This document shows positions 20,215 to 31,717 of a DNA stretch of 64,000 nucleotides, piece after piece. Both the position numbers and the translations under genes were made by a program. Source of the stretch: Planctomycetia bacterium (lineage in GTDB: Bacteria; Planctomycetota; Phycisphaerae; UBA1845; UTPLA1); NCBI GenBank assembly GCA_015200345.1, contig CP054187.1, positions 1,720,470-1,784,469 on the forward strand, read 5' to 3'. Every line of letters starts with the position of its first letter. Positions within the stretch are counted from its first letter, which is position 1. Under the pieces are notes generated by a model. That model did no database searches. It was not told the origin of the DNA and saw only the letters and a program-made list of their open reading frames with translations.

Positions 20215-21816
20215 TCACCCCAGCCCGACCTCCCGGTTGAACGCTTCGATCCGTGCGTCCCAGCCGGCGGCTTGCTCAAAGGTCTGCGCCCAGAAGTCCG
20301 GATCCCACAGGCGGCGCAGCTCGTCGACGCCGCGTTGCTGCTGCTCAACCCAGGTGAAGTATTTGAAGTTGTGCAGCGCCTTGCGGTCTTGATACCCCAG
20401 CTCGCGCAGGTGATCGACGCCGATTCCTTCGAGATAGCGCGCGAAATGCCGCCCCGCGAGCGACTCCGAATACGCCCCGTGCAAGGAACGTTGCTCCGCG
20501 ATGCGCGAGGCGTACAGCTCCATCGAATCAGTCAGGGGGATGAACAACACGTCGCGCCCGTCCATCTCGTAAAGCTTTGCCGTCTTGATCGCCGCGACGA
20601 GGTTGCACAGGCTCGAGATGCCAATGTCCGGCAGGCGGTCGACCACGCCGCGCGAAACGCCGGCCTGCTCGAGCGTTCGGCGGCCGGCGTCCTCGTTGAA
20701 CAGCCGCATCAGCGCCAGGCACTGCTCGTCGTCGATGGCGGCGACCAGGTCGGTGTTGCGCACGTTGTGAATCCAGGGGATGTGCTTGTCGCCGATGCCT
20801 TCAATGCGATGATCGCCGAAACCACAGGCCAGCAGCGTGGGGCATTGAAGCGCCTCGACGGCGACGACGCGAACCTGCGGCGCGATGGTGCGAAGATAGT
20901 CGCCGGCGGCGATCGTGCCCGCGCTGCCGGTCGCGGAGATGTAACCGGCGAGGCGATAGGGAGCTGCGGTGCGGATAGGAGCCGCGGGCTTCAGCCCGCG
21001 CGGCGCATCGAGGGCCAGTGCCGCTTGAGAATCCGCGCGGGCTGAAGCCCGCGGCTCATTGATTGGCTCCTTGATTGGCTCCTTGATTGGCTCCTTGATT
21101 GGCGGCGCGGCGTGCAACTGCCGAAAGATTTCCTCCACGATCGACCCCGTGACGTGATAATGCCACGCCGCGTTGCCAAACTCCTCGAACTGGTTGAAGA
21201 TCACGCAATCCGGCCGCGTCCGGCGGATCTCCCAGCACTTGTCGTAAATCTCCTTCACGTTGCTCTCGCAGCCCGGCGTCGCGATCACCTCGGCCCCGAT
21301 CGATCGCAGCCACTCGAACCGCTCGCGCGACATGCCCTCCGGCAGAATCGCCACGGCCGTGCAGCCCAGCAGCGCGCAGTCGTACGCCCCGCCGCGGCAG
21401 TAGTTGCCCGTGCTCGGCCAGACGGCCTTCTGCGCCGTCGGGTCAAACTGACCAGTGACAAGCCGTGGCACGAGGCAGCCGAAGGCCGCGCCGACTTTGT
21501 GCGCGCCGGTCGGGAAGTGCTTTCCAACAATGCCGATGATGCGCGCGGGCACGCCGGTGAGGGCGGGCGGGAACTCGATCCAGTTTCCGTTGTTGAAGCC
21601 GCCGCCGCGGGCGACCGGTTCGTTCTTCCACGTGATGCGAAACAAGTTGGCGGGATCGACGTCCCACAGGCCGACGTTCTGGAGGCGGTCTTTGATGCGT
21701 TGTGGAACGAGCGACGGGTCCTTCTGCTGCGCGAAGGTGGGGATGATGATGTTGCGCTCACGGCAAAGGGCGATGGCGTTTTGGAGGGCAGACTCGGGTG
21801 AAACCTTTGTACTCAC
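20215..21816 (-). CDS. Fold-type-II PLP-dependent enzyme of purine-cluster type, with repeat insertion
   Basis: A 533-residue PLP enzyme. A GTG at 21816 with GGAG seven bases upstream fixes the start. The cofactor lysine is probably in PTGAHKVG (about 87-94), and the phosphate-binding loop in TGSAGTIAAGD; WPSTGNYCRGG and NQFEEFGNAAWH are strongly patterned. The family is usually annotated only as a pyridoxal-5-phosphate-dependent protein beta subunit and is related to tryptophan-synthase-beta/threonine-synthase-like lyases. Between about residues 235 and 275 lies low-complexity sequence (four KEP/NEP units, then RASARA and RGLKPAAP) encoded by repeats, an insertion absent from the fold. It is divergent from a second PLP enzyme at 21940. 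The substrate is unknown; an amino-acid-like product of purine breakdown is inferred from context. Confidence 0.75.
   Translation of the reverse strand: MSTKVSPESALQNAIALCRERNIIIPTFAQQKDPSLVPQRIKDRLQNVGLWDVDPANLFRITWKNEPVARGGGFNNGNWIEFPPALTGVPARIIGIVGKHFPTGAHKVGAAFGCLVPRLVTGQFDPTAQKAVWPSTGNYCRGGAYDCALLGCTAVAILPEGMSRERFEWLRSIGAEVIATPGCESNVKEIYDKCWEIRRTRPDCVIFNQFEEFGNAAWHYHVTGSIVEEIFRQLHAAPPIKEPIKEPIKEPINEPRASARADSQAALALDAPRGLKPAAPIRTAAPYRLAGYISATGSAGTIAAGDYLRTIAPQVRVVAVEALQCPTLLACGFGDHRIEGIGDKHIPWIHNVRNTDLVAAIDDEQCLALMRLFNEDAGRRTLEQAGVSRGVVDRLPDIGISSLCNLVAAIKTAKLYEMDGRDVLFIPLTDSMELYASRIAEQRSLHGAYSESLAGRHFARYLEGIGVDHLRELGYQDRKALHNFKYFTWVEQQQRGVDELRRLWDPDFWAQTFEQAAGWDARIEAFNREVGLG
20979..21057. 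repeat. Family A palindromic repeat, facing pair inside a PLP enzyme gene
   Basis: Copy 1 (20979-21004) and inverted copy 2 (21033-21057) share the palindromic core gcgggcttcagcccgc and flanking gagccgc / gcggctc. They enclose 28 bases. On the coding (minus) strand they add the residues EPRASARA and PRGLKPAA in frame. Confidence 0.9.
21058..21106. repeat. 12-bp tandem repeat, four copies, in the coding sequence
   Basis: ttgattggctcc is repeated four times, the last copy partial. It encodes four successive (I)KEP/NEP units on the minus strand, directly beside the family A pair. The unit length is a multiple of three, so copy-number change would keep the frame. Confidence 0.9.
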
Positions 21817-21939
21817 AATGATGCTCCGATTGAATGCTCGTCGCAGCACCCAGTCTATCCGCTTTGTCATCCAAACCCAACGCAGGCATCGCGGTATAAT
21901 TCGGCCGACTGTACCAGACAGCCCGTTCGAGGATCGCAC

Positions 21940-23220
21940 GTGAGCCTTGTGACCCTATTGAAGTGCGTCGCCTGCGGGAAGGAATTCCCGCCTGCCGCCG
22001 GCTGGACCTGCCCCACCTGCGGACCGGACGAAGGCATCCTCGACGTGCAATACGATATGCCGCGTGTCCGGCAAACGCTGACCCGCGCGGCGCTGTCCAT
22101 CCGGCCGCTGTCGCACTGGCGATACGCCGAGTTGCTGCCGATCGACGTGCCGCCGCCCGCGGGGATCGAGCACATCGGCTGGACGCCGCTGATCGAGGCG
22201 CCGCGCCTGGCCGCGGCCCTGGGCATCGAACGATTGCGGCTGAAGGACGACGGCCGCAGCGCGTCGGCCTCGTTCAAGGATCGCGCCAGCAGCATCGGCG
22301 TCGCCCATGCCATTGAAATGCACCGTGGCACCGGCGTCTCGCCGGTGGAGATCGCCTGCGCGTCGACCGGTAACGCTGCCAGCAGTCTGGCATATTGCGC
22401 GGCCGCCGCGGGACTGGGCTGCAACATCTTCGTGCCGCGGACCGTGCCCGAGGGCAAGCTCGCGCAATTGCTCGCCTATGGCGCTCGCGTGTTCAAAGTC
22501 ATGGGCAGCTATGCCGAAGCGTACGATCTGTGCACGCACGCCTGCGCCCGGTTCGGCTGGTACAACCGCAATTGTGCGGTGAACCCCTATCTGGTCGAGG
22601 GCAAAAAGACCGGCGGGCTGGAAGTCGCCGAGCAGTGCGCCGACGATCCGCCGGAGTGGGTGGCCGTCAGCATCGGCGACGGCTGCACGATCTCCGGAAT
22701 ATACAAGGGTCTGCGTCAGTCGCGCGAGGCCGGCATCATCTCCTGGAACGCGCGGATGCTGGGCGTGCAGTCGGAGGGCGTCGCGCCGATCGCGAACCTG
22801 TGGCAGCGACGGAACGCCGGCGAATGGCTGGAGAAGCTGACCGGCCGTGATCTGCATTCGCGCGACACGACCTATGCCGACAGCATCAACTGCCCCGTGC
22901 CGCGCAACTGGCGCAAGGCGCTGGCCGCCCTGCGCGACAGCGACGGCGCGTGCGTCGCCGTCACCGACGAACAAATCATGGAGGCCGTGCGTACAGCGGG
23001 CAGGCTGTCGGGCGTCTTCGCCGAACCGGCGGCGGCGGCGGCGGTCGCGGGCATCGCCCAGGCCCGGCGCGACGGCATTCTCACCGAGCGGTCAAACGTC
23101 GTCGCCATGATCACCGGCAACGGATTGAAGGACACGGCGGGCGCGCTGCGGGCCGTCGGCAAGCCGCATGAAGTGCCGCCGGACGTCGGCGAAGTGGAGC
23201 GAATCATACGCCAGGAGTGA
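21940..23220 (+). CDS. Threonine synthase-like PLP-dependent enzyme with N-terminal zinc ribbon
   Basis: A 426-residue fold-type-II PLP enzyme that starts at a GTG with a GAGG site upstream. The N-terminal CVAC (9-12) and CPTC (about 23-26) form a rubredoxin-like knuckle typical of one threonine synthase subgroup. The PLP lysine is in SASFKDRAS (about 110-118), and the phosphate-binding glycine loop is in ASTGNAASS. MITGNGLKD near the end is conserved in threonine synthases. Its neighbours belong to purine breakdown rather than threonine synthesis, so beta-replacement or deamination of a purine-derived amino acid is plausible. A family B palindrome inserts RGTGVSPVE in frame at about residues 130-138. 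Confidence 0.78.
   Translation: MSLVTLLKCVACGKEFPPAAGWTCPTCGPDEGILDVQYDMPRVRQTLTRAALSIRPLSHWRYAELLPIDVPPPAGIEHIGWTPLIEAPRLAAALGIERLRLKDDGRSASASFKDRASSIGVAHAIEMHRGTGVSPVEIACASTGNAASSLAYCAAAAGLGCNIFVPRTVPEGKLAQLLAYGARVFKVMGSYAEAYDLCTHACARFGWYNRNCAVNPYLVEGKKTGGLEVAEQCADDPPEWVAVSIGDGCTISGIYKGLRQSREAGIISWNARMLGVQSEGVAPIANLWQRRNAGEWLEKLTGRDLHSRDTTYADSINCPVPRNWRKALAALRDSDGACVAVTDEQIMEAVRTAGRLSGVFAEPAAAAAVAGIAQARRDGILTERSNVVAMITGNGLKDTAGALRAVGKPHEVPPDVGEVERIIRQE
22326..22348. repeat. Family B palindromic repeat inside the threonine synthase-like gene
   Basis: caccggc (22329-22335), loop gtctc and gccggtg (22341-22347) form a hairpin. It encodes GTGVSPV on the + strand between a helix and the ASTGN loop. 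A facing-pair version lies at 32362-32411. Confidence 0.6.
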
Positions 23221-23251
23221 TTGGAGAATGAAGAATTGAGAAGGCCGGCGT

Positions 23252-23360
23252 GGTTTCAGGACTCCTCTCCCCCTGAAGGAGAAGTCGGGTGAAGGGGACG
23301 AGCGGTCTTAGCGAAGCAGCTTACCCCCATCCCGGCCCTCTCCCTGGAAGGGAGAGGGTG
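23252..23360. repeat. REP/MITE-like palindromic element (family R, copy 2)
   Basis: ggtttcaggactcctctccc on the left and ggccctctccctggaaggga on the right repeat the organisation of copy 1 at 13277-13393, with a central region of about 25 bases that differs. It is intergenic, between the threonine synthase-like gene and the SsnA gene. No promoter or terminator was identified in the remaining sequence. Confidence 0.75.
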
Positions 23361-23414
23361 ACGCCTGCCCTCGTCAATCTTAATTCTTAATTCGACATTC
23401 TACAATCAGTGACC

Positions 23415-24734
23415 ATGTCCACCATTCTCACCAACGCCATTCTCTGTGATCTCGACCCGCCGCGCGTTCAACACGGCGCGCTGCGCATCGAGGACGGCCT
23501 CATCACCCATCGCGGTAAATCCGTTCCGACTGGCCGCGAAGATGAAGTAATTGATCTTGGCGGCGCGGTGGTGATGCCCGGACTGGTCAACGGCCACACG
23601 CACCTGTACTCGGCGCTGGCGGTCGGCATGCCCCCGCCGCCGAAGTCGCCGCGAAATTTCCTGCAAATCCTCAAGTACGTCTGGTGGCGGCTGGATCAGG
23701 CACTGGACGACGAGTCGATTGAGATGTCAGCGCGCATCGGCGCGCTGGAGGCCCTGCGCTGCGGCACGACGACGCTCATCGACCATCACGCCTCGCCCCG
23801 CGCCATCGACGGCTCGCTGGATCGGATCGAAGCCGGCCTTCACGCTGTCGGCCTTCGCGGCGTGCTTTGTTATGAAGTCACCGATCGTCACGGGCGCGCG
23901 GGACGCGAAGCGGGGCTGGCGGAGAACGCCCGATATATCGATAAATGTCGAGAACATGGGCACGGTCGATACGCCGGACTGGTCGGCGCGCACGCCTGTT
24001 TCACCCTCGGCGACGACGCCCTGCAACGCCTCGCCGAGCTCTCACAAAAAACGCGTTGCGGCGTGCACATTCACGTCGCAGAAGACCCCTGCGACGAAGC
24101 GGTCTGCCGCCGCAAGCACCGTCAATCACTCATCGCCCGACTCGACGACTACGGTCTGCTCCACGAGCGATCCCTCTTCGCGCACGGCACACATCTGGAC
24201 GCCGCGGCGACCAAACGCATCCGCGCCGCAAAGGTCACGATGGCCCACAACGCCCGCTCGAACATGAACAACGCCGTCGGCTATGCTCCCGTCGCCGATT
24301 TCGGCCCGCGCGTCATGCTCGGAACCGACGGCATCGGCGCGAACATGCTCGGCGAGGCCCGGGCCGCGTGGTTCATCGCGCGACATCAGAAATCGCGTCT
24401 CTCCCCCGCCGACCTTCTGAATATGCTCGCTCACAGTGCCCGCCGTGCGTCGGCCTCGCTCGGCGTCACCCTCGGCAAGCTGCAACCCGGCGCGGCCGCG
24501 GACGTCATCCTCACCAACTATCGCCCGTTCACGCCGATCGACGCCGACAACCTCGCCGGGCATCTGCTCTTCGCCATCGGTCCGCAACACGTCGAATCGG
24601 TCCTCATCGACGGCCGCTGGAAACTCCGTGGCGGCACGGTGCGGGAGTGCGACGAAGTCGGCATGCGCGAAGCGGCTGTAGGAATCGCGAAACGGCTGTG
24701 GGAACGGATGGCGGGTCGCCTCGCCGAGGGCTGA
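23415..24734 (+). CDS. ssnA: SsnA-like aminohydrolase (amidohydrolase superfamily)
   Basis: A 439-residue amidohydrolase (a GTG six bases upstream would add two residues). The metal-binding motif is NGHTHLYSAL (about 61-70), and later ligands are in VHIHVAEDPCDEAV and ALFAHGTHLD-like LFAHGTHLD. ARSNMNNAVGYAP and LGTDGIGANM complete the active site. SsnA proteins occur in gene clusters with ygfK and selenium-dependent xanthine dehydrogenase, and are thought to deaminate or open a purine-derived ring. It is flanked by a PLP enzyme and a MocA-like gene, which fits that setting. Confidence 0.85.
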   Translation: MSTILTNAILCDLDPPRVQHGALRIEDGLITHRGKSVPTGREDEVIDLGGAVVMPGLVNGHTHLYSALAVGMPPPPKSPRNFLQILKYVWWRLDQALDDESIEMSARIGALEALRCGTTTLIDHHASPRAIDGSLDRIEAGLHAVGLRGVLCYEVTDRHGRAGREAGLAENARYIDKCREHGHGRYAGLVGAHACFTLGDDALQRLAELSQKTRCGVHIHVAEDPCDEAVCRRKHRQSLIARLDDYGLLHERSLFAHGTHLDAAATKRIRAAKVTMAHNARSNMNNAVGYAPVADFGPRVMLGTDGIGANMLGEARAAWFIARHQKSRLSPADLLNMLAHSARRASASLGVTLGKLQPGAAADVILTNYRPFTPIDADNLAGHLLFAIGPQHVESVLIDGRWKLRGGTVRECDEVGMREAAVGIAKRLWERMAGRLAEG

Positions 24735-24736
24735 TC

Positions 24737-24830
24737 AGCGCGCCGTGGGCTTCGGCTCGCACGCCGCTGATGCACGAAAGAACGCCTTTCTTGGCTTCGA
24801 ACGACCGCGCGGTCTGAAGCCCGCGGCTCG
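24737..24830. repeat. Degenerate family A pair downstream of ssnA
   Basis: A worn left copy (gcgccgtgggcttcggctcgc, near 24739-24760) faces a better right copy (ccgcgcggtctgaagcccgc, 24805-24824, then ggctcg). The spacing resembles the other pairs. It lies between the convergent ssnA and MocA-like genes. Confidence 0.6.
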
Positions 24831-24842
24831 CTGGTCGTGAAA

Positions 24843-25511
24843 CTACTCGTTCGTCGGAAGATCCCCCGGTTCGTCCGCATCGCGCAACACGGCGTCGGTC
24901 GGCAATTCCACAAGCTGCATGCGGTCGGCGAATTCTCGCGTCAGCGCATTCAATCCGCCGTCGCACGCTGGCGACATCACGAAAGGAATCAACTCGGCCG
25001 GGAGAATGATCGGATGCCCGCGACGGCCGCCGTGCGACGCGATGATGATCGACCCCCGGTCGTTGGCGGACGCCTTCGCGCTGCCCGCTCCCGACACGCG
25101 CGAAACATCCGCGCGATACGCGCCGACACACGCTGCGAAAACCGCGGTCGTCAGCCCGGGATAATCGCCGGGACAGACGAGAATGCCATCGCGCGGCGCG
25201 ATGTCTTCCCGTTCGCGGCAGGCACGCAACCCCACGCGAATCGAATCGATCATCTCCGATGATTCATCCTCGTTGAACACAACGCGGATCTTGCCGTTCG
25301 ACAATTCATCATTCGACGCGCCCAGCGCGTCGATGATCGCGCAGCGCGTCACGATCATGACATCCGCGATGCCCTCAACCGCCGCCATCGTCTCCGCCAG
25401 TCGCCACAGCATCGGCCGGCCGCCCACGTCGATCAATTGCTTGGGCCGCCCCATGCGGCGCGACCAACCCGCGGCGGGAATGATGGCAACGATTCGCGGC
25501 GTCTCACTCAT
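24843..25511 (-). CDS. MocA-like molybdenum cofactor nucleotidyltransferase
   Basis: A 222-residue GT-A fold nucleotidyltransferase. The signature PAAGWSRRMGRPKQLIDVGG (about 11-30) matches the MocA/MobA nucleotide-binding loop, and VCPGDYPGLT matches the metal-binding D of the family (usually GDMP). MocA-type enzymes add CMP to molybdopterin for xanthine-dehydrogenase-type enzymes; YgfJ-like relatives accompany selenium-dependent purine clusters. It overlaps the upstream ygfK-like stop by 8 bases, so the two genes are coupled. It probably supplies the cofactor of the two molybdenum hydroxylases nearby. Confidence 0.82.
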   Translation of the reverse strand: MSETPRIVAIIPAAGWSRRMGRPKQLIDVGGRPMLWRLAETMAAVEGIADVMIVTRCAIIDALGASNDELSNGKIRVVFNEDESSEMIDSIRVGLRACREREDIAPRDGILVCPGDYPGLTTAVFAACVGAYRADVSRVSGAGSAKASANDRGSIIIASHGGRRGHPIILPAELIPFVMSPACDGGLNALTREFADRMQLVELPTDAVLRDADEPGDLPTNE

Positions 25512-27618
25512 GCACGTTCACCTGATTCACGCGAGACGAATCCAGCACACCCGCCATCAGGTGCCGCATCGTGTGATACGCCCACAGATCCAGCGTGTGT
25601 TCGCCCTCCAACGGTGAGTGCGCGTGCAACGCCTTGAGCGCATGCGTCGCGCCGTCAAACTCCGCAACGACCACGCCGTCATCCAGCACCAGGTGGCCAT
25701 CCACCGCCATCAGTCGAAACACGCGGCCCTTGATCCGCCCGCGAATCCACGGCCCCTGCGCCGATCGCCCGATGACAAACCCGTCGCGCGGGGCAGCCTG
25801 CTCCCACGAGCGCTCGGTGCCGAAGAACGTCGGCTTCTTGATGTACGGCCCGCCGTACTCGGGGCAGAACGTGTCGCAATTACCGCATTCGTTGCAAAAG
25901 TCGCTGTAGCAGGCGATCTGCATCGACTCGGTGATTTCGAAGCGCCGCGATTCGCCGGCGCGGGACGTGAGCGTGTTGCTTCGCGCGTCACCATTAATCG
26001 GTGACACGATGATGTCGTGATAATCGAAGGCCACTTGGGGCGTGGGGTAGGTGAAATTCGCCGCGTTCGGGCAGACGGGCAAGCACTTGTCGCAGGTGAT
26101 GCAGTCGAACGTCTCCAGGTGCGAGTCGATGCGCTTGGGGACTTTGCGATTGTTCTCGGCGCGATAGCGCGGGTCGTTGCGGGCCTGCTCCGCAGCGAGA
26201 GTGGTGTTGTTCAATTCAGCTCGCTTCACTTCTTCCAACGAGCCGCGAGCTTCAGCTCGCGCGGCGTTTGTGCGTCGAGCGAACGACTCTTCCGCGATCG
26301 AATGGCCACGCGGGCTGAAGCCCGCGGCTCGTTGCGGCGACGAGCGGTTCGCATCGGCGCGATCCGACGCGCTTCGCTTGATGATGTAGTCATTCATCGT
26401 CGCCGCGCCGAGTTTTCGCATCTCCGCCGAGAGGCGATCGAGATACGCCGGCATCCGACCATAGCCACCAGGGCGAAGCAGATCCGTGCTGGTCGTAATG
26501 GGCACGAACCCGCACGCGACGGCCGACGGAAAGTTCTGCGCGTCGATCCCCGCGCTGAAGGAGATGGGAAACTCCGCACCCATCGCCCGGCGAAATTCGT
26601 CCGTGAGTGTCATCGTAATGACATGAAGCGGCTGGCCCGACAGATACATCACCTTGTTGTCCGGCGTGAAGAAATCGCGGTGGTTGAGCACCTCCAGCGT
26701 GTTGCTGAATTTCGCGCCGAACGTCCGCCCGCGCGCCGCCGCGAAGCCCGACAGCCGCCGGCAAAGCTGCACGCCTTCGTCAAACCCCAGCCCGGTGCGA
26801 TAGGCCTCGGGGTTCACGGTCAATTCCGTGTAGCCCAGCACGTCGTGCAGCAAATGCTCCAGCCGCTCCTTGCCGAGCATCGGCGGGTTCATCTTCACGA
26901 TCACGTTGAAATCGTACTCGCCCATCAGAAACTCGCAGATGCGCTCGATCTCGTCCGCCGGGCAGCCGTGAAACGTCGAGAGCGTGATGCCATCGCTGAT
27001 GCGCGCGGGGTATTTCAAGTCGCGCGCGGCGGTGAATTCCGCCGGAATCTCGGCGCGAAGCTTTTCCACCATCGGCCGCGCGTCGATCATCGCATCGAGA
27101 AACCCGCGCACCGCGTCGCCGCGTATGCCCGCGAGGTCGTAGCCGACGCTCAAGTCATACACCACGTCGCCCGCCGGACCGCGATTGCCTGCCGGCCCGT
27201 CCGGGTGCGCAGATCGAAACATATCAATCAACATCGCCCCGGCCACGTACTCCCGAATCGATTCGGCGATGCGCAGCTCCTGCGACCACTCGATGTTGTA
27301 GCCCACGTTGGTCACGTCGATGCAGGGGCGGCCGATCGTGAGCCGGTCATTCACCTGCACCGTCTTGAGTTCGAGGATGCGCCCGCCGGCGGCGTAGCTC
27401 AACAGGATGTTCTGCGCCATCTGCGTGTGCGGCCCGGCGGCAGGGCCGAGCGGATTGCCGGCGCGATGCCCGTGAAACGCGACCGACAAATCCGGCCCGT
27501 CGTCCGCCGGCGCGTACCAGCGATTGCGCGGCAGTTCGAACAGCGCGCCCTGCCGCGACGGTTCGAGGTACAACCGTCTTACAAGGTCCGCAAACGGCGC
27601 TGGAACCAGCTCGGCCAT
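25504..27618 (-). CDS. ygfK: YgfK-like oxidoreductase (putative selenate reductase/purine-cluster subunit), short form
   Basis: A 704-residue flavo/iron-sulfur protein. Residues 1-400 form a dihydroorotate dehydrogenase-like barrel (AAGPHTQMAQN, LELKTVQVNDR, FHGCPADEIE). Two ferredoxin-like cysteine sets follow: CITCDKCLPVCPNAA (about 513-527) and CNECGNCDTFCPEYG (about 582-596). YgfK of E. coli is about 1030 residues and also carries a GltD-like FAD/NAD(P)-binding domain; this protein appears to lack it. At about 430-470, just before the first cluster, two family A repeats add low-complexity sequence (RGHSIAE..NAARAEARG). YgfK is associated with reductive steps in anaerobic purine breakdown. 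It is divergent from the xdhD gene, with 116 bases between. Confidence 0.85.
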   Translation of the reverse strand: MAELVPAPFADLVRRLYLEPSRQGALFELPRNRWYAPADDGPDLSVAFHGHRAGNPLGPAAGPHTQMAQNILLSYAAGGRILELKTVQVNDRLTIGRPCIDVTNVGYNIEWSQELRIAESIREYVAGAMLIDMFRSAHPDGPAGNRGPAGDVVYDLSVGYDLAGIRGDAVRGFLDAMIDARPMVEKLRAEIPAEFTAARDLKYPARISDGITLSTFHGCPADEIERICEFLMGEYDFNVIVKMNPPMLGKERLEHLLHDVLGYTELTVNPEAYRTGLGFDEGVQLCRRLSGFAAARGRTFGAKFSNTLEVLNHRDFFTPDNKVMYLSGQPLHVITMTLTDEFRRAMGAEFPISFSAGIDAQNFPSAVACGFVPITTSTDLLRPGGYGRMPAYLDRLSAEMRKLGAATMNDYIIKRSASDRADANRSSPQRAAGFSPRGHSIAEESFARRTNAARAEARGSLEEVKRAELNNTTLAAEQARNDPRYRAENNRKVPKRIDSHLETFDCITCDKCLPVCPNAANFTYPTPQVAFDYHDIIVSPINGDARSNTLTSRAGESRRFEITESMQIACYSDFCNECGNCDTFCPEYGGPYIKKPTFFGTERSWEQAAPRDGFVIGRSAQGPWIRGRIKGRVFRLMAVDGHLVLDDGVVVAEFDGATHALKALHAHSPLEGEHTLDLWAYHTMRHLMAGVLDSSRVNQVNVHE
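26240..26330. repeat. Family A palindromic repeat pair inside the ygfK-like gene
   Basis: Facing copies at 26240-26265 (with gcgagcttcagctcgc as a compensated core variant) and 26306-26330 (gcgggctgaagcccgc) enclose 40 bases. They are in frame on the coding minus strand. The left copy has paired changes in both arms, which keeps the hairpin. Confidence 0.9.
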
Positions 27619-27734
27619 GTTGTCATTGTACCGTCGGTTCCTTACCGCGCGCCGATTTTTGTCCCAAACATCGGCATGTCGGACCGGACTTGCTGTTCCA
27701 CGCTCGGCAGCTAATCACGTATAATCAAGGCACC

Positions 27735-30452
27735 ATGTCCGCACCGGCTCATGCATCCTCAACCGTATCCTTCACGCTGAACGGCCAACCCGTCTCCACG
27801 CCGCATGGCGACCGCAGCCTGCTCGATGTGCTGCGCGAGGATTTCGACATCATCTCGCCGAAGAACGGCTGCCAGCCGATGGGGCAGTGCGGCTGCTGCA
27901 CGATTCTGATCGACGGCAAGCCGCGGTTGAGCTGCACGATCAAGGCGTCCGTGGCCGCCGGCAAGAAGGTGACGACGCTCGAAGGCCTGCCCGAGCCAAC
28001 GCGCCAGCAGATCGCCGACTGCTTCGTTCACGCCGGCGCGGTGCAGTGCGGCTTCTGCATCCCCGGCATCGCCATGCGAGCGCATGCCCTGTGCGAGAAG
28101 AACCCCGCGCCGACGCACGATCAAATCACCGGCGATCTGCGAGCGCACCTGTGCCGCTGCACGGGCTACACCAAGATCGTCGACGCCATCGATCTGCTCG
28201 CGCGCGTCCGCGGCGGCGAGCCGATGCCGTCCAACGGCTGCGCCGGCAAGGTCGGCGAGCGCCTGCACCGTTACACCGGTCACGACGCCGCCCTCGGCAT
28301 GCGCCGCTACATCGACGACATCAAGGTGCCCGGCATGGTCTTCGCCGCGCCGCGGTTGAGCGATCATCCCCGCGCGCTGGTGAAGAAAATCAATACCGCG
28401 CCGGCGATGGCGGTGCCCGGCGTGCTGCGCGTCGTCACGGCGGCCGACGTACCGGGCGACCGCTTCGTCGGCCTGATCACGCCGGACTGGCCCGTCTTCA
28501 TCGCCGAAGGCGAGGAAACGCGCTACGTTGGCGACGTGCTGGCGTTTGTCGTGGCGGCGGACGTTCACGCGGCACGGTACGCGGCGGATCAGATCGAGAT
28601 CGAATACGACGTCCGCACGCCGGTGACGACGCCGGACGACGCGCTGAAACCGGATGCGCCGAAGATTCACCCCGGCGGCAATTTGCTTTCCAGATCGGCG
28701 CTTGTTCGCGGTGAACCCGATGCGGTGCTGGCCGCTTCCGCCCACGTCGTCGAGAACGTCTGGCAGACCCAGTGCATCGAGCACCTGTATCTCGAACCCG
28801 AGGCGGCCATCGCCATTCCCGAAGGGGATGGATTGAAATTGCTCACCCAGGGCCAGGGCATTTTCGACGATCGTCGTCAGACGGCGAAGGTGCTCGGCTG
28901 GCCGATCGAGCGCGTCCGCGCCGAGCTGGTCTCCAACGGCGGGGCCTTCGGCGGCAAGGAAGACATGAGCGTGCAGGCGCAGACCGCGCTGTGCGCGGTG
29001 CTGGTGAACAAACCCGTCAAGTGCGTGCTCACGCGCGAGCAGAGTCTGCGATTGCACCCCAAGCGCCACCCGGTGCGCATCTCGCTGAAGGTCGGCTGCG
29101 ATGCCGAGGGCAAACTGACCGCCGCGCGCGTGCGCATCATTGGTGACAAGGGCGCGTATGCATCCGTCGGCGCGAAGGTGCTGGAGCGCGCCGCGGGCCA
29201 CGCCATCGGTCCATACAAATGCGACAACATCGACATCGAGTCGCTGGCGGTCTATACGAACAATCCCCCGAACGGAGCCATGCGCGGCTTCGGCGCGAAT
29301 CAGGCGGCCTACGCCATCGAAGGCGCGCTCGACATGCTCGCCGCGAAAGTCGGCATCGACGGGTGGGAAATCCGCTGGCGAAACATCCTGCGACCCGGTG
29401 ATCGCTTCTGCACCGGTCAGCGGCTGACCAAGCCGTTCGGGCTGGAGCAGACGCTGCTCGCCGTGCGCGACGCTTATCGCGCCGAGAAATTCGCCGGCAT
29501 CGCCTGCGGCATCAAGAACGTCGGCATCGGCAACGGCCTGCCCGAGATCGGCTGTGCGAGTCTGACCGTCGAAGCCGACGGGTCGATCACGATCCGAACC
29601 GGCCACACTGAAATGGGACAGGGTCTGTTCACCATCGCCATTCAGACCGCCGTGCAGGAGACGGGCCTGCCGCACGAGATTTTCACCGCCCGATGCGACA
29701 CGTCCGACCCCAACGACAGCGGCCAGACGACCGGCAGCCGCGGCACGGTGCTGACCTGTCACGCGGTCATCGACGCGTGCAAGAAATTAAACGCCGATTT
29801 GAAGGAACTTCATCTGCCGCCTGCCGATTCTTCACGTGCGAATGCGAACCAGCCGCAAGCGCGCTCCAACGAGCCGCATTCCAACGAGCCGCGGGCTTCA
29901 GCCCGCGCGGCGATGCCAGCGCTCATGAAGCTCGCCGGCCGAAAATACCTCGGCCGCTGGGAGTGCTACAAAACCGACAAGTTCGGCGCGGACGTGCCCG
30001 AGCCGAAGACGCACCTCACCTACGGATTCGCGACGCAAGTCTGTATTCTCGACGAGACCGGGCGAATTAAGAAGTTCATCGCCGCCCACGATGTCGGCCG
30101 CGTGATGAACCCGACGCTGCTGGAAGGCCAGCTCGAAGGCTCGATCCACATGGGCCTGGGCTACGCGCTCACGGAGGAGATGGTCTACGACGGCGGCCGA
30201 CTTGTGACGGATGACGTGAAATCCTGCGGTGTGCTGCGCGCGCATCACATGCCGCCGATCGAAATAATTCTCGTCGAAGTGCCCGACCCGGATTGCCCCT
30301 ACGGCGCACGCGGCGTCGCCGAGATCGGCCTTGTCCCCACGGCCCCCTCCGTGGCCGGCGCGCTGGCGAAGTTCGAGGGCTTCCATCGCACGACGCTGCC
30401 GATGAAGGATTCTCCGGCGGCGAAGGCCATCCTCGGCCCGCGCGCCGGTTGA
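27735..30452 (+). CDS. xdhD: XdhD-type (selenium-dependent xanthine dehydrogenase family) molybdenum hydroxylase
   Basis: A 905-residue fusion of a 2Fe-2S domain and a molybdopterin-binding domain, the layout of E. coli XdhD. The first cluster is CQPMGQCGCC plus C (about 47-70); the second is QCGFCIPG and CRCTGY (about 108-150). The Mo domain begins near residue 180; GGAFGGKED and AMRGFGANQAAYAIE bind cofactor and substrate, MGQGLFT follows, and the catalytic Glu is in GARGVAEIGL near the end. No FAD domain is present. The selenium requirement (labile sulfido/selenido ligand, not selenocysteine) is inferred from the family. A family A repeat near residue 715 adds SNEPRASARA in frame. Confidence 0.88.
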   Translation: MSAPAHASSTVSFTLNGQPVSTPHGDRSLLDVLREDFDIISPKNGCQPMGQCGCCTILIDGKPRLSCTIKASVAAGKKVTTLEGLPEPTRQQIADCFVHAGAVQCGFCIPGIAMRAHALCEKNPAPTHDQITGDLRAHLCRCTGYTKIVDAIDLLARVRGGEPMPSNGCAGKVGERLHRYTGHDAALGMRRYIDDIKVPGMVFAAPRLSDHPRALVKKINTAPAMAVPGVLRVVTAADVPGDRFVGLITPDWPVFIAEGEETRYVGDVLAFVVAADVHAARYAADQIEIEYDVRTPVTTPDDALKPDAPKIHPGGNLLSRSALVRGEPDAVLAASAHVVENVWQTQCIEHLYLEPEAAIAIPEGDGLKLLTQGQGIFDDRRQTAKVLGWPIERVRAELVSNGGAFGGKEDMSVQAQTALCAVLVNKPVKCVLTREQSLRLHPKRHPVRISLKVGCDAEGKLTAARVRIIGDKGAYASVGAKVLERAAGHAIGPYKCDNIDIESLAVYTNNPPNGAMRGFGANQAAYAIEGALDMLAAKVGIDGWEIRWRNILRPGDRFCTGQRLTKPFGLEQTLLAVRDAYRAEKFAGIACGIKNVGIGNGLPEIGCASLTVEADGSITIRTGHTEMGQGLFTIAIQTAVQETGLPHEIFTARCDTSDPNDSGQTTGSRGTVLTCHAVIDACKKLNADLKELHLPPADSSRANANQPQARSNEPHSNEPRASARAAMPALMKLAGRKYLGRWECYKTDKFGADVPEPKTHLTYGFATQVCILDETGRIKKFIAAHDVGRVMNPTLLEGQLEGSIHMGLGYALTEEMVYDGGRLVTDDVKSCGVLRAHHMPPIEIILVEVPDPDCPYGARGVAEIGLVPTAPSVAGALAKFEGFHRTTLPMKDSPAAKAILGPRAG
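29865..29911. repeat. Family A palindromic repeat inside xdhD, with duplicated 13-mer
   Basis: One full copy (29886-29911, core gcgggcttcagcccgc) is preceded by a duplicated tccaacgagccgc (29865-29877 and 29880-29892). It encodes SNEPHSNEPRASARAA in frame. No facing copy is seen downstream. Confidence 0.85.
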
Positions 30453-30479
30453 TTTTAATTAACGAATGTTCGTTGACCA

Positions 30480-30513
30480 AAGCCCGGGGCCCGCTTGGCG
30501 GGGCCCTTGGAAA
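30480..30513. terminator. Possible hairpin after xdhD
   Basis: ggggcccgc and gcggggccc form a 9-bp stem with one mismatch and a ttg loop. There is no T run on the + strand, so its activity as an intrinsic terminator is doubtful. The 135 bases between xdhD and the next start also contain the short palindrome aacgaatgttcgtt (30462-30475). Confidence 0.35.
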
Positions 30514-30587
30514 TGTACTCACTTTCCTAACCACTCAAATCGCTGTCGAGGGCGCATTCTGAAATTGCCTCGGCGTACAATGATTGC

Positions 30588-31607
30588 ATGAGCGAACTTG
30601 CACCCGTGCTGGATGCCCTGCTTGCCGACCTCGACGCCGGCCGGCCGGTCGCGCTTTGCACCGTCCTGCGCACGCGCGGGAGCACGCCGCAGGCGCCGGG
30701 CGCGACGATGCTCGTCCGCGCCGATGGCAAAACGCTCGGCACGCTCGGCGGCGGATGCGTCGAGGCCGAGGTTCGCAAACGCGCCTTTGAAATGCTCCGC
30801 GCCAATCAAAGCGGCATGCTCGATTTCACGCTCGATCACGATTACGGCTGGGACGACGGCCTCATCTGCGGCGGGCGGATGTTCATCGGTGTCATGCCGA
30901 TGTCGCGCGAGAACGACGCCGCCCCATACCGCGCCGCACTCGCCGCCACGCGCGCACGACAACCGGCTGCGTTTCCCATCGTCATTGACGCCGCGCCGTC
31001 CGGAGGCGGCACCAGCGGAATCGCCGGCGCCAATTCGCAGGACCGGCCCGGTGTGAACGCCGCATCCGTCGCGCCACGGCGCGAGCGGTACACCGTGCAT
31101 CTGGAGGTGCCGCCGACGCTGCTGATCGCCGGAGCCGGGCACGTCGGACGAGCGCTGGCCACGCTGGCCGTCGATCTGGATTTTCACGTCGTCGTCATCG
31201 ACGACCGTGCCGACTACGCCTCGCGCGAGCGCTTCGACGGCCGCGTTGAACTGGTCGTGGGCGACATCGCCGCCGCGTTGCGCGGCCGTGCGATTGATGC
31301 CGGTTGCTACGTTGTGATCGTCACGCGCGGCCATCAGAATGACGAGAAAGCGCTGGACGCCGTCATTCGCTCACCCGCGGGTTACATCGGCCTGATCGGC
31401 AGCCGGCGCAAGAGCCGGTTGATTCTCGACGATTTGCGCGCGGCCGGCGTGCCCGATGATTTGCTCGCGCGCGTGCACACGCCGATCGGCCTGCCGATCA
31501 ACGCGGTGACGGTTCCGGAAATCGCGATCAGCATCGCGGCGCAACTCGTGCAGGTCCGGCGAAGCCAGTTGCCGGTGCTGGTCGAGGGCCCGATACACAC
31601 ACCATGA
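30588..31607 (+). CDS. XdhC/CoxI-family molybdenum hydroxylase maturation protein
   Basis: A 339-residue protein with the two usual domains: XdhC/CoxI N-terminal (VALCTVLRTRGSTPQAPGA, then GTLGGGCVEAEV, about 20-65) and a C-terminal Rossmann domain (LLIAGAGHVGRALA, about 174-187, then VIDDRADYA). XdhC proteins bind molybdenum cofactor, promote insertion of the terminal sulfur and pass the cofactor to xanthine dehydrogenase. The gene follows xdhD by 135 bases on the same strand and likely serves both molybdenum hydroxylases of the island. A YqeB-like selenium-insertion role is possible, but the domain order fits XdhC better. Confidence 0.85.
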   Translation: MSELAPVLDALLADLDAGRPVALCTVLRTRGSTPQAPGATMLVRADGKTLGTLGGGCVEAEVRKRAFEMLRANQSGMLDFTLDHDYGWDDGLICGGRMFIGVMPMSRENDAAPYRAALAATRARQPAAFPIVIDAAPSGGGTSGIAGANSQDRPGVNAASVAPRRERYTVHLEVPPTLLIAGAGHVGRALATLAVDLDFHVVVIDDRADYASRERFDGRVELVVGDIAAALRGRAIDAGCYVVIVTRGHQNDEKALDAVIRSPAGYIGLIGSRRKSRLILDDLRAAGVPDDLLARVHTPIGLPINAVTVPEIAISIAAQLVQVRRSQLPVLVEGPIHTP

Positions 31608-31626
31608 TCCGCGCGTCGCCCCCAAC

Positions 31627-31717
31627 GAGCCGCGGGCTTCAGCCCGCGCGGCAATCAACACGTGAACGAACCGTTCGCAAGACAGATCAGCGCCGCGCGG
31701 GCTGAAGCCCGCGGCTC
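31627..31717. repeat. Family A palindromic repeat pair, intergenic
   Basis: Facing copies at 31627-31652 and 31692-31717 enclose 39 bases. They fill most of the 118-base gap between the convergent XdhC and FAD-subunit genes, and might also act as a bidirectional stem-loop there. Confidence 0.9.

Follow-up and report, generated by a model that had tools for sequence, protein, structure and literature searches.

Repetitive extragenic palindromes (REPs) and the REP doublets called REPINs are short hairpins with a conserved foot; their unit is a facing pair, and copies flank the gene of a Y1/HUH transposase, the REP-associated tyrosine transposase or RAYT (PMC3116915, PMC2817692, PMC8266576). The palindromes analyzed here recur within a 64-kb stretch of the genome of a Planctomycetia bacterium (contig CP054187.1, positions 1,720,470 to 1,784,469; this whole stretch is called the window below) and form a REP/REPIN family of the Phycisphaerae with a 26-bp hairpin and an AANGAGC foot. 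Like the described systems, the family consists of hairpins with a conserved foot, occurs as facing pairs, and has copies on either side of a RAYT. However, classic REPs are mainly intergenic and their RAYTs free-standing, whereas about half of the loci found here lie in genes and the flanked RAYT is a segment of purH. We propose, with a probability of roughly 0.8, that a REP/REPIN family and the in-frame nesting of its RAYT in essential enzymes together account for these observations.

Judged by their sequences, the RAYTs resemble class 3 TnpA-Y1 proteins, a class found mainly in Planctomycetes and Acidobacteria whose hairpins are atypical and have CnGA as their foot (Quentin et al. 2018; PMC6006769). 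They share the NHVH, W[TA] and Y...EQ motifs and an extended N-terminal conservation, and the foot here is AnGA. The survey that defined this class treated free-standing genes, excluded proteins that were longer than expected, taking them for fused genes or misannotations, and noted in-frame REPs within some tnpA genes (PMC6006769), but it does not describe nesting in essential genes, and the nested copies reported here have no stop codon of their own. Palindromic elements of Rickettsia and other intragenic REPs lie in frame within numerous protein genes, among them genes for DNA repair and for tRNA synthetases (PMC3733652). The likeness to them is drawn on insertion behaviour, namely in-frame insertion in unrelated protein genes; no transposase gene was reported nested likewise in those systems, whereas one is embedded here.

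Inteins provide a further parallel, being enzymes embedded in conserved essential genes with a patchy distribution and repeated use of the same sites. The present elements likewise combine an embedded enzyme, essential host genes, patchy presence and site reuse, but no splicing domain was found and the insert appears to remain in the protein. In-frame REPs and REP-RAYT systems are thus already known; a transposase embedded as a domain in essential enzymes is apparently new, since a search of the open-access literature (purH, tRNA synthetase, in-frame insertion) brought up no account of RAYTs lying inside essential genes.

A transposase within the only purH gene

The genome that contains the window (3.88 Mb in one contig) is labelled G000 and its congeners G001 and G002; other G labels denote further genomes compared. 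G000 has four Y1_Tnp matches, only one of which is flanked by this palindrome, with one plus-strand copy upstream and two minus-strand copies downstream. This RAYT sits in frame in the genome's only purH, forming an 867-aa open frame with the order PurH-REP-RAYT-REP-REP-PurH. A loop of 10 residues in M. tuberculosis PurH is extended to 274 residues, the insert being bounded by residues 272 and 547. The inserted segment matches IS200/IS605 TnpA structures (2fyx, 2xm3) and PF01797 (31 bits), as well as the NCBIfam model REP_Tyr_transpos (E 8e-10, below the curated cut-off). Comparison of G000 with G001 gives a dN/dS of 0.12 for the nested RAYT and 0.22 for PurH, indicating purifying selection. 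No second PurH was detected by homology in G000 or the relatives searched, and the Pfam matches of the fusion (E up to 1e-6) include no intein Hint domain. The PurH-RAYT fusion is presumably translated as one chain in which both parts would be active. Another RAYT type occurs in G000 as one intact and two decayed copies (1207941; 666-670 kb; L101, L102), without association to this palindrome.

Nested transposases across the class

Among 41 genomes (G000 and 40 relatives), a transposase occupies this loop in nine PurH genes, being of the G000 type in four and of an unrelated Y1 type in five; a fifth PurH with the G000 type was later found in G073. The remaining PurH open frames measure 550-660 aa. 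The G000 type is also nested in alanyl-, valyl- and leucyl-tRNA synthetases (AlaRS, ValRS and LeuRS), and when 298 genomes of the class were searched with a profile built from 13 nested domains, further nests turned up in AlaRS, ValRS, a DUF1156 protein and another methylase. By homology, the carriers have a single copy of AlaRS; for ValRS and LeuRS this is less firm. In G029, AlaRS carries two transposases at two sites. The His-x-His histidines and the tyrosine are invariant in the 13 aligned nested RAYTs, and an HUH motif is present in all nested domains examined. A PF01797 search across the order returned mostly free-standing class-2 RAYTs. Long open frames at the RAYTs of G105, G274, G049 (contig 75) and G270 are chance frames over free-standing genes and were left uncounted.

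Several side observations concern these loci. The unrelated Y1 type (NLPHLQ...) lies in frame at the PurH loop of five genomes (L293-L296, L298), flanked by other repeat peptides. The loop of G015 (L402) and G040 (L240) contains a short in-frame insert that resembles another REP family, without a transposase. Other in-frame repeat peptides, of PLPHGRGSE and SRDRKGAV types, surround nested transposases (L284-L289, L352-L367), which suggests that the class has several more REP families. The DUF1156 proteins and the putative DNA methylase among the hosts (L352, L355, L358, L368) are not obviously essential genes.

Nested copies differ from standalone ones in their gene boundaries. Only three of 28 nested copies have an ATG within 20 codons upstream and 16 have no ATG, GTG or TTG there; none has a stop within 90 residues past the domain, and the frame is continuous throughout. 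By contrast, all 22 standalone relatives possess a start codon of some kind, which is an ATG in 15 of them, and 21 possess a stop. A wider tally of stop codons (0/29 nested, 27/121 standalone) is biased because nesting itself is recognized by open frames, and the 28-versus-22 comparison is preferred. The transposase tree, whose bootstrap values are not fully settled, implies six changes between nested and standalone states, at least four of them forced by supported branches, along with 15 changes of host label. Nesting thus arose repeatedly, sometimes at one and the same loop. Filled and empty sites were compared by their residue-level junctions; within one genus, the PurH and AlaRS sites are both empty in G002, while PurH is nested in G013 and AlaRS in G015.

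The nested RAYT might instead be a domain useful to the host, regulating PurH or the tRNA synthetases, rather than a transposon in a refuge. Strong purifying selection on the RAYT and the repeated use of the same loops agree with such a role. However, the state of the PurH site varies in a single genus (nested in G013, empty in G002, another REP-like insert only in G015) and unrelated RAYT types occupy one and the same PurH loop, so we regard a regulatory domain as unlikely.

The palindrome family and its copies inside genes

The full element is GAGCCGCGGGCTTCAGCCCGCGCGGC. G000 contains 71 copies at up to three mismatches, whereas the reversed control gives none. In facing pairs the usual offset is about 65 bp, which gives a 91-bp unit, the REPIN architecture, in about a dozen loci. 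In classic REPs, the foot 5' of the hairpin is GTAG. Here AAN precedes nearly all copies, so the foot is AANGAGC. Partial tandem units, made of the 5' flank and the 5' arm of the REP, adjoin many copies directly before them; they mostly measure 12, 15, 18 or 21 bp in genes, while multiples of three are less usual between genes. These units look like the product of template slippage at the hairpin, and were seen at window positions 21058-21100 and at loci L068, L075, L078, L092, L095, L098 and L100. At least 119 stretches of named genomes contain the exact 26-mer, and among those listed nearly all are Phycisphaerae or other Planctomycetota; when up to one mismatch is allowed, 18 of 61 genomes from the order have it. 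An exact copy was also seen in a metagenome-assembled genome labelled Armatimonadota (L159), by transfer or through a mis-binned contig. Three similar FG-GAP repeat proteins (L066, L082, L099) carry one and the same REP at a matching position, apparently duplicated along with the gene.

Copies were placed against frames scored by codon usage, and hosts were checked with Pfam, NCBIfam, solved structures and the congener G001. By our own count, a recognizable gene encloses 27 of 52 loci, and 25 of those 27 are in frame; a conservative count of 22 of 24 still departs from the one-third expectation (p = 4e-9), for which selection against broken frames is the obvious reason. Hosts include isoleucyl-tRNA synthetase (IleRS, five loci), AlaRS, prolyl-tRNA synthetase (ProRS), ValRS, PurL, PurH, Dfp and CinA, as well as an aldehyde dehydrogenase, a CoA-enzyme activase, a polyketide-type synthase, a GH3 protein and the three genes of the window (Table 1). 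Other loci with a codirectional frame change mostly lie directly past a stop codon. Apparent frame breaks at other REP loci were rejected, since the REPs are intergenic or, at a carboxylase locus, the break is away from the REP.

Across genomes, REPs are associated with the presence of this RAYT clade (p = 0.002 from a hand tally), but a few observations weigh against the explanation that we favour. Some relatives carry REPs though this clade was not found there, and many of the genomes compared are draft metagenome assemblies. In addition, the ValRS gene of G000 (L088, 2411312-2413859) shifts frame at two REPIN positions and then returns; not every in-gene copy is therefore in frame there. 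Candidate causes of these shifts are an assembly indel at runs of C, a mutation, or frameshifting.

The ValRS shifts would also fit an explanation in which the nested RAYT and REPs are missing from the working enzyme, either because the ribosome skips them at the hairpins or because RNA or protein is spliced, and the inverted REPs that flank the RAYT could indeed pair in the mRNA. Yet all 28 nested RAYTs are continuous and stop-free, which neither bypass nor RNA removal would need, and an intein domain is missing from the Pfam matches of the PurH fusion. The ValRS of G001 is a single open frame, and the frame changes in G000 stand beside runs of C, so an assembly indel or a mutation is possible. 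Skipping or splicing is improbable.

Table 1. Palindrome copies and host genes in the window (positions count from the first nucleotide of the window).
Feature	Position	Strand	Remarks
Host gene, PLP (pyridoxal phosphate)-dependent enzyme of cysteine-synthase fold type	20218..21837	-	
REP copy 1 of facing pair, in PLP-enzyme gene, in frame	20979..21004	+	Exact 26-mer; insert relative to cysteine synthase
REP copy 2 of PLP-gene pair	21032..21057	-	1 mismatch; then in-frame 12-bp partial tandem units (GAGCCAATCAAG)
Worn REP copy, past end of amidohydrolase open reading frame (ORF)	24740..24765	+	6 mismatches
REP copy facing the worn one	24804..24829	-	2 mismatches
Host gene, YgfK-like selenate reductase subunit	25507..27618	-	TIGR03315, E 5e-107, below curated cut-off
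REP of GCGAGC/GCTCGC subfamily in ygfK, in frame	26240..26265	+	Variant recurs in genome; absent from congener G001
Second REP of ygfK pair (91-bp unit)	26305..26330	-	Open host frame; absent from congener G001
Host gene, selenium-dependent xanthine dehydrogenase (xdhD)	27735..30449	+	TIGR03311, above cut-off
Single REP in xdhD, in-frame partial unit before it	29886..29911	+	Exact 26-mer; gap versus solved structures; common to G001
REP copy 1 of intergenic facing pair, after ORF ending at 31607	31627..31652	+	
REP copy 2 of intergenic pair (91-bp unit)	31692..31717	-	

Within the window, the core GCGGGCTTCAGCCCGC at up to three mismatches gives 19 strand-wise matches against 3.1 expected, a number reached in none of 100 shuffles. 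The family was first recognized in an earlier reading of this window alone (the original prediction), which counted seven good copies and a worn pair; the family stands, but the count becomes eight good copies and one worn copy of the 26-bp palindrome. Five copies are in frame within three genes (PLP enzyme, ygfK and xdhD), and the pairs at 24.7 and 31.6 kb lie outside genes or at gene ends. The claim that all three in-gene loci keep the frame is borne out, the host reading frame being open across the palindromes at each, and the genome-wide counts given above extend it to an excess beyond chance. A ygfK copy singled out for compensating changes does have a compensated stem pair, but it is not unique: its GCGAGC/GCTCGC variant defines a subfamily of about 10 copies in the genome. 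The proposed comparison with the Rickettsia elements holds for in-frame insertion into several protein genes, and the RAYT suspected elsewhere in the genome is the one nested in frame in purH, beyond the reach of that reading.

Alignments show that the in-gene palindromes are insertions and not conserved coding sequence, and the residues that they encode are lacking in repeat-free homologues and relatives, contrary to what ordinary coding sequence would have predicted. Residues 232-296 of the PLP enzyme have no counterpart in cysteine synthase, whose chain passes from 166 to 176, and residues 686-727 of xdhD align to chain positions 718-730 of a solved structure. The five IleRS inserts coincide with gaps or breaks in the alignment to a solved IleRS. 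As for the congener G001, it shares the xdhD copy and also the PLP-gene pair, minus 36 bp of tandem units and minus 18 bp at the opposite end, while the ygfK pair is replaced by an unrelated variable linker in a region of mostly 84-91% nucleotide identity.

In-gene copies common to G000 and G001 differ at 14 of 312 nucleotides (one spurious partial pairing set aside), compared with 421 of 1426 four-fold sites in the same host genes, so that the copies are about six-fold less diverged, although REP positions are not all synonymous sites and the comparison is not strictly neutral. Some of the differences are compensated across the stem. These values agree with the earlier suggestion of selection on structure or active copying, and because the encoded peptide varies with the reading frame between loci, a DNA or RNA structure or recopying is favoured over constraint on the peptide. 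The same figures make it doubtful that in-gene REPs are inert relics, with neither continuing copying nor constraint: most compared sites are common to both congeners, and insertion was thus not very recent, but the low divergence and the compensated changes speak for constraint or copying, and one of the two species lacks the ygfK pair. We consider inert relics about as improbable as skipping. Finally, ordinary GC-rich coding sequence that is palindromic by chance, conceivable for short cores in a GC-rich genome, can be dismissed with near certainty given the excess in the window, the 71 genomic copies against none in the reversed control, and the absence of the residues from repeat-free homologues, where they fall at gaps or breaks of structure alignments.

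Proposed mechanism and implications

REPs are most likely copied via single-stranded DNA by their cognate Y1/HUH RAYT. Five of the six frames of the palindrome are stop-free, so copies in surface loops whose total length is divisible by three would be tolerated and kept. The REP-RAYT-REP unit may enter loops of essential enzymes in frame by the same route. The nested RAYT would then lose its own start and stop codons and become an obligate inserted domain of the host enzyme; translation solely as part of that enzyme would shield it from stops and frameshifts. This RAYT presumably copies these REPs, with which it co-occurs across genomes, and embedding is the probable reason why it persists. 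On balance we lean towards a broader view, in which RAYTs of Phycisphaerae live like inteins without splicing: inserted in frame in single-copy essential enzymes, having given up start and stop, they would be translated only with the enzyme, remain intact because breaking them breaks the enzyme, and still copy REPs.

The nests reveal loops of PurH, AlaRS, ValRS and LeuRS that accept about 160-270 foreign residues, and the filled and empty sites within one genus provide natural cases of domain insertion. They may also account for long proteins that an earlier survey put aside as fusions or annotation errors. The REPIN field has yet to explain how RAYTs persist without multiplying themselves, and embedding in the sole copy of an essential enzyme would be a direct and testable answer.

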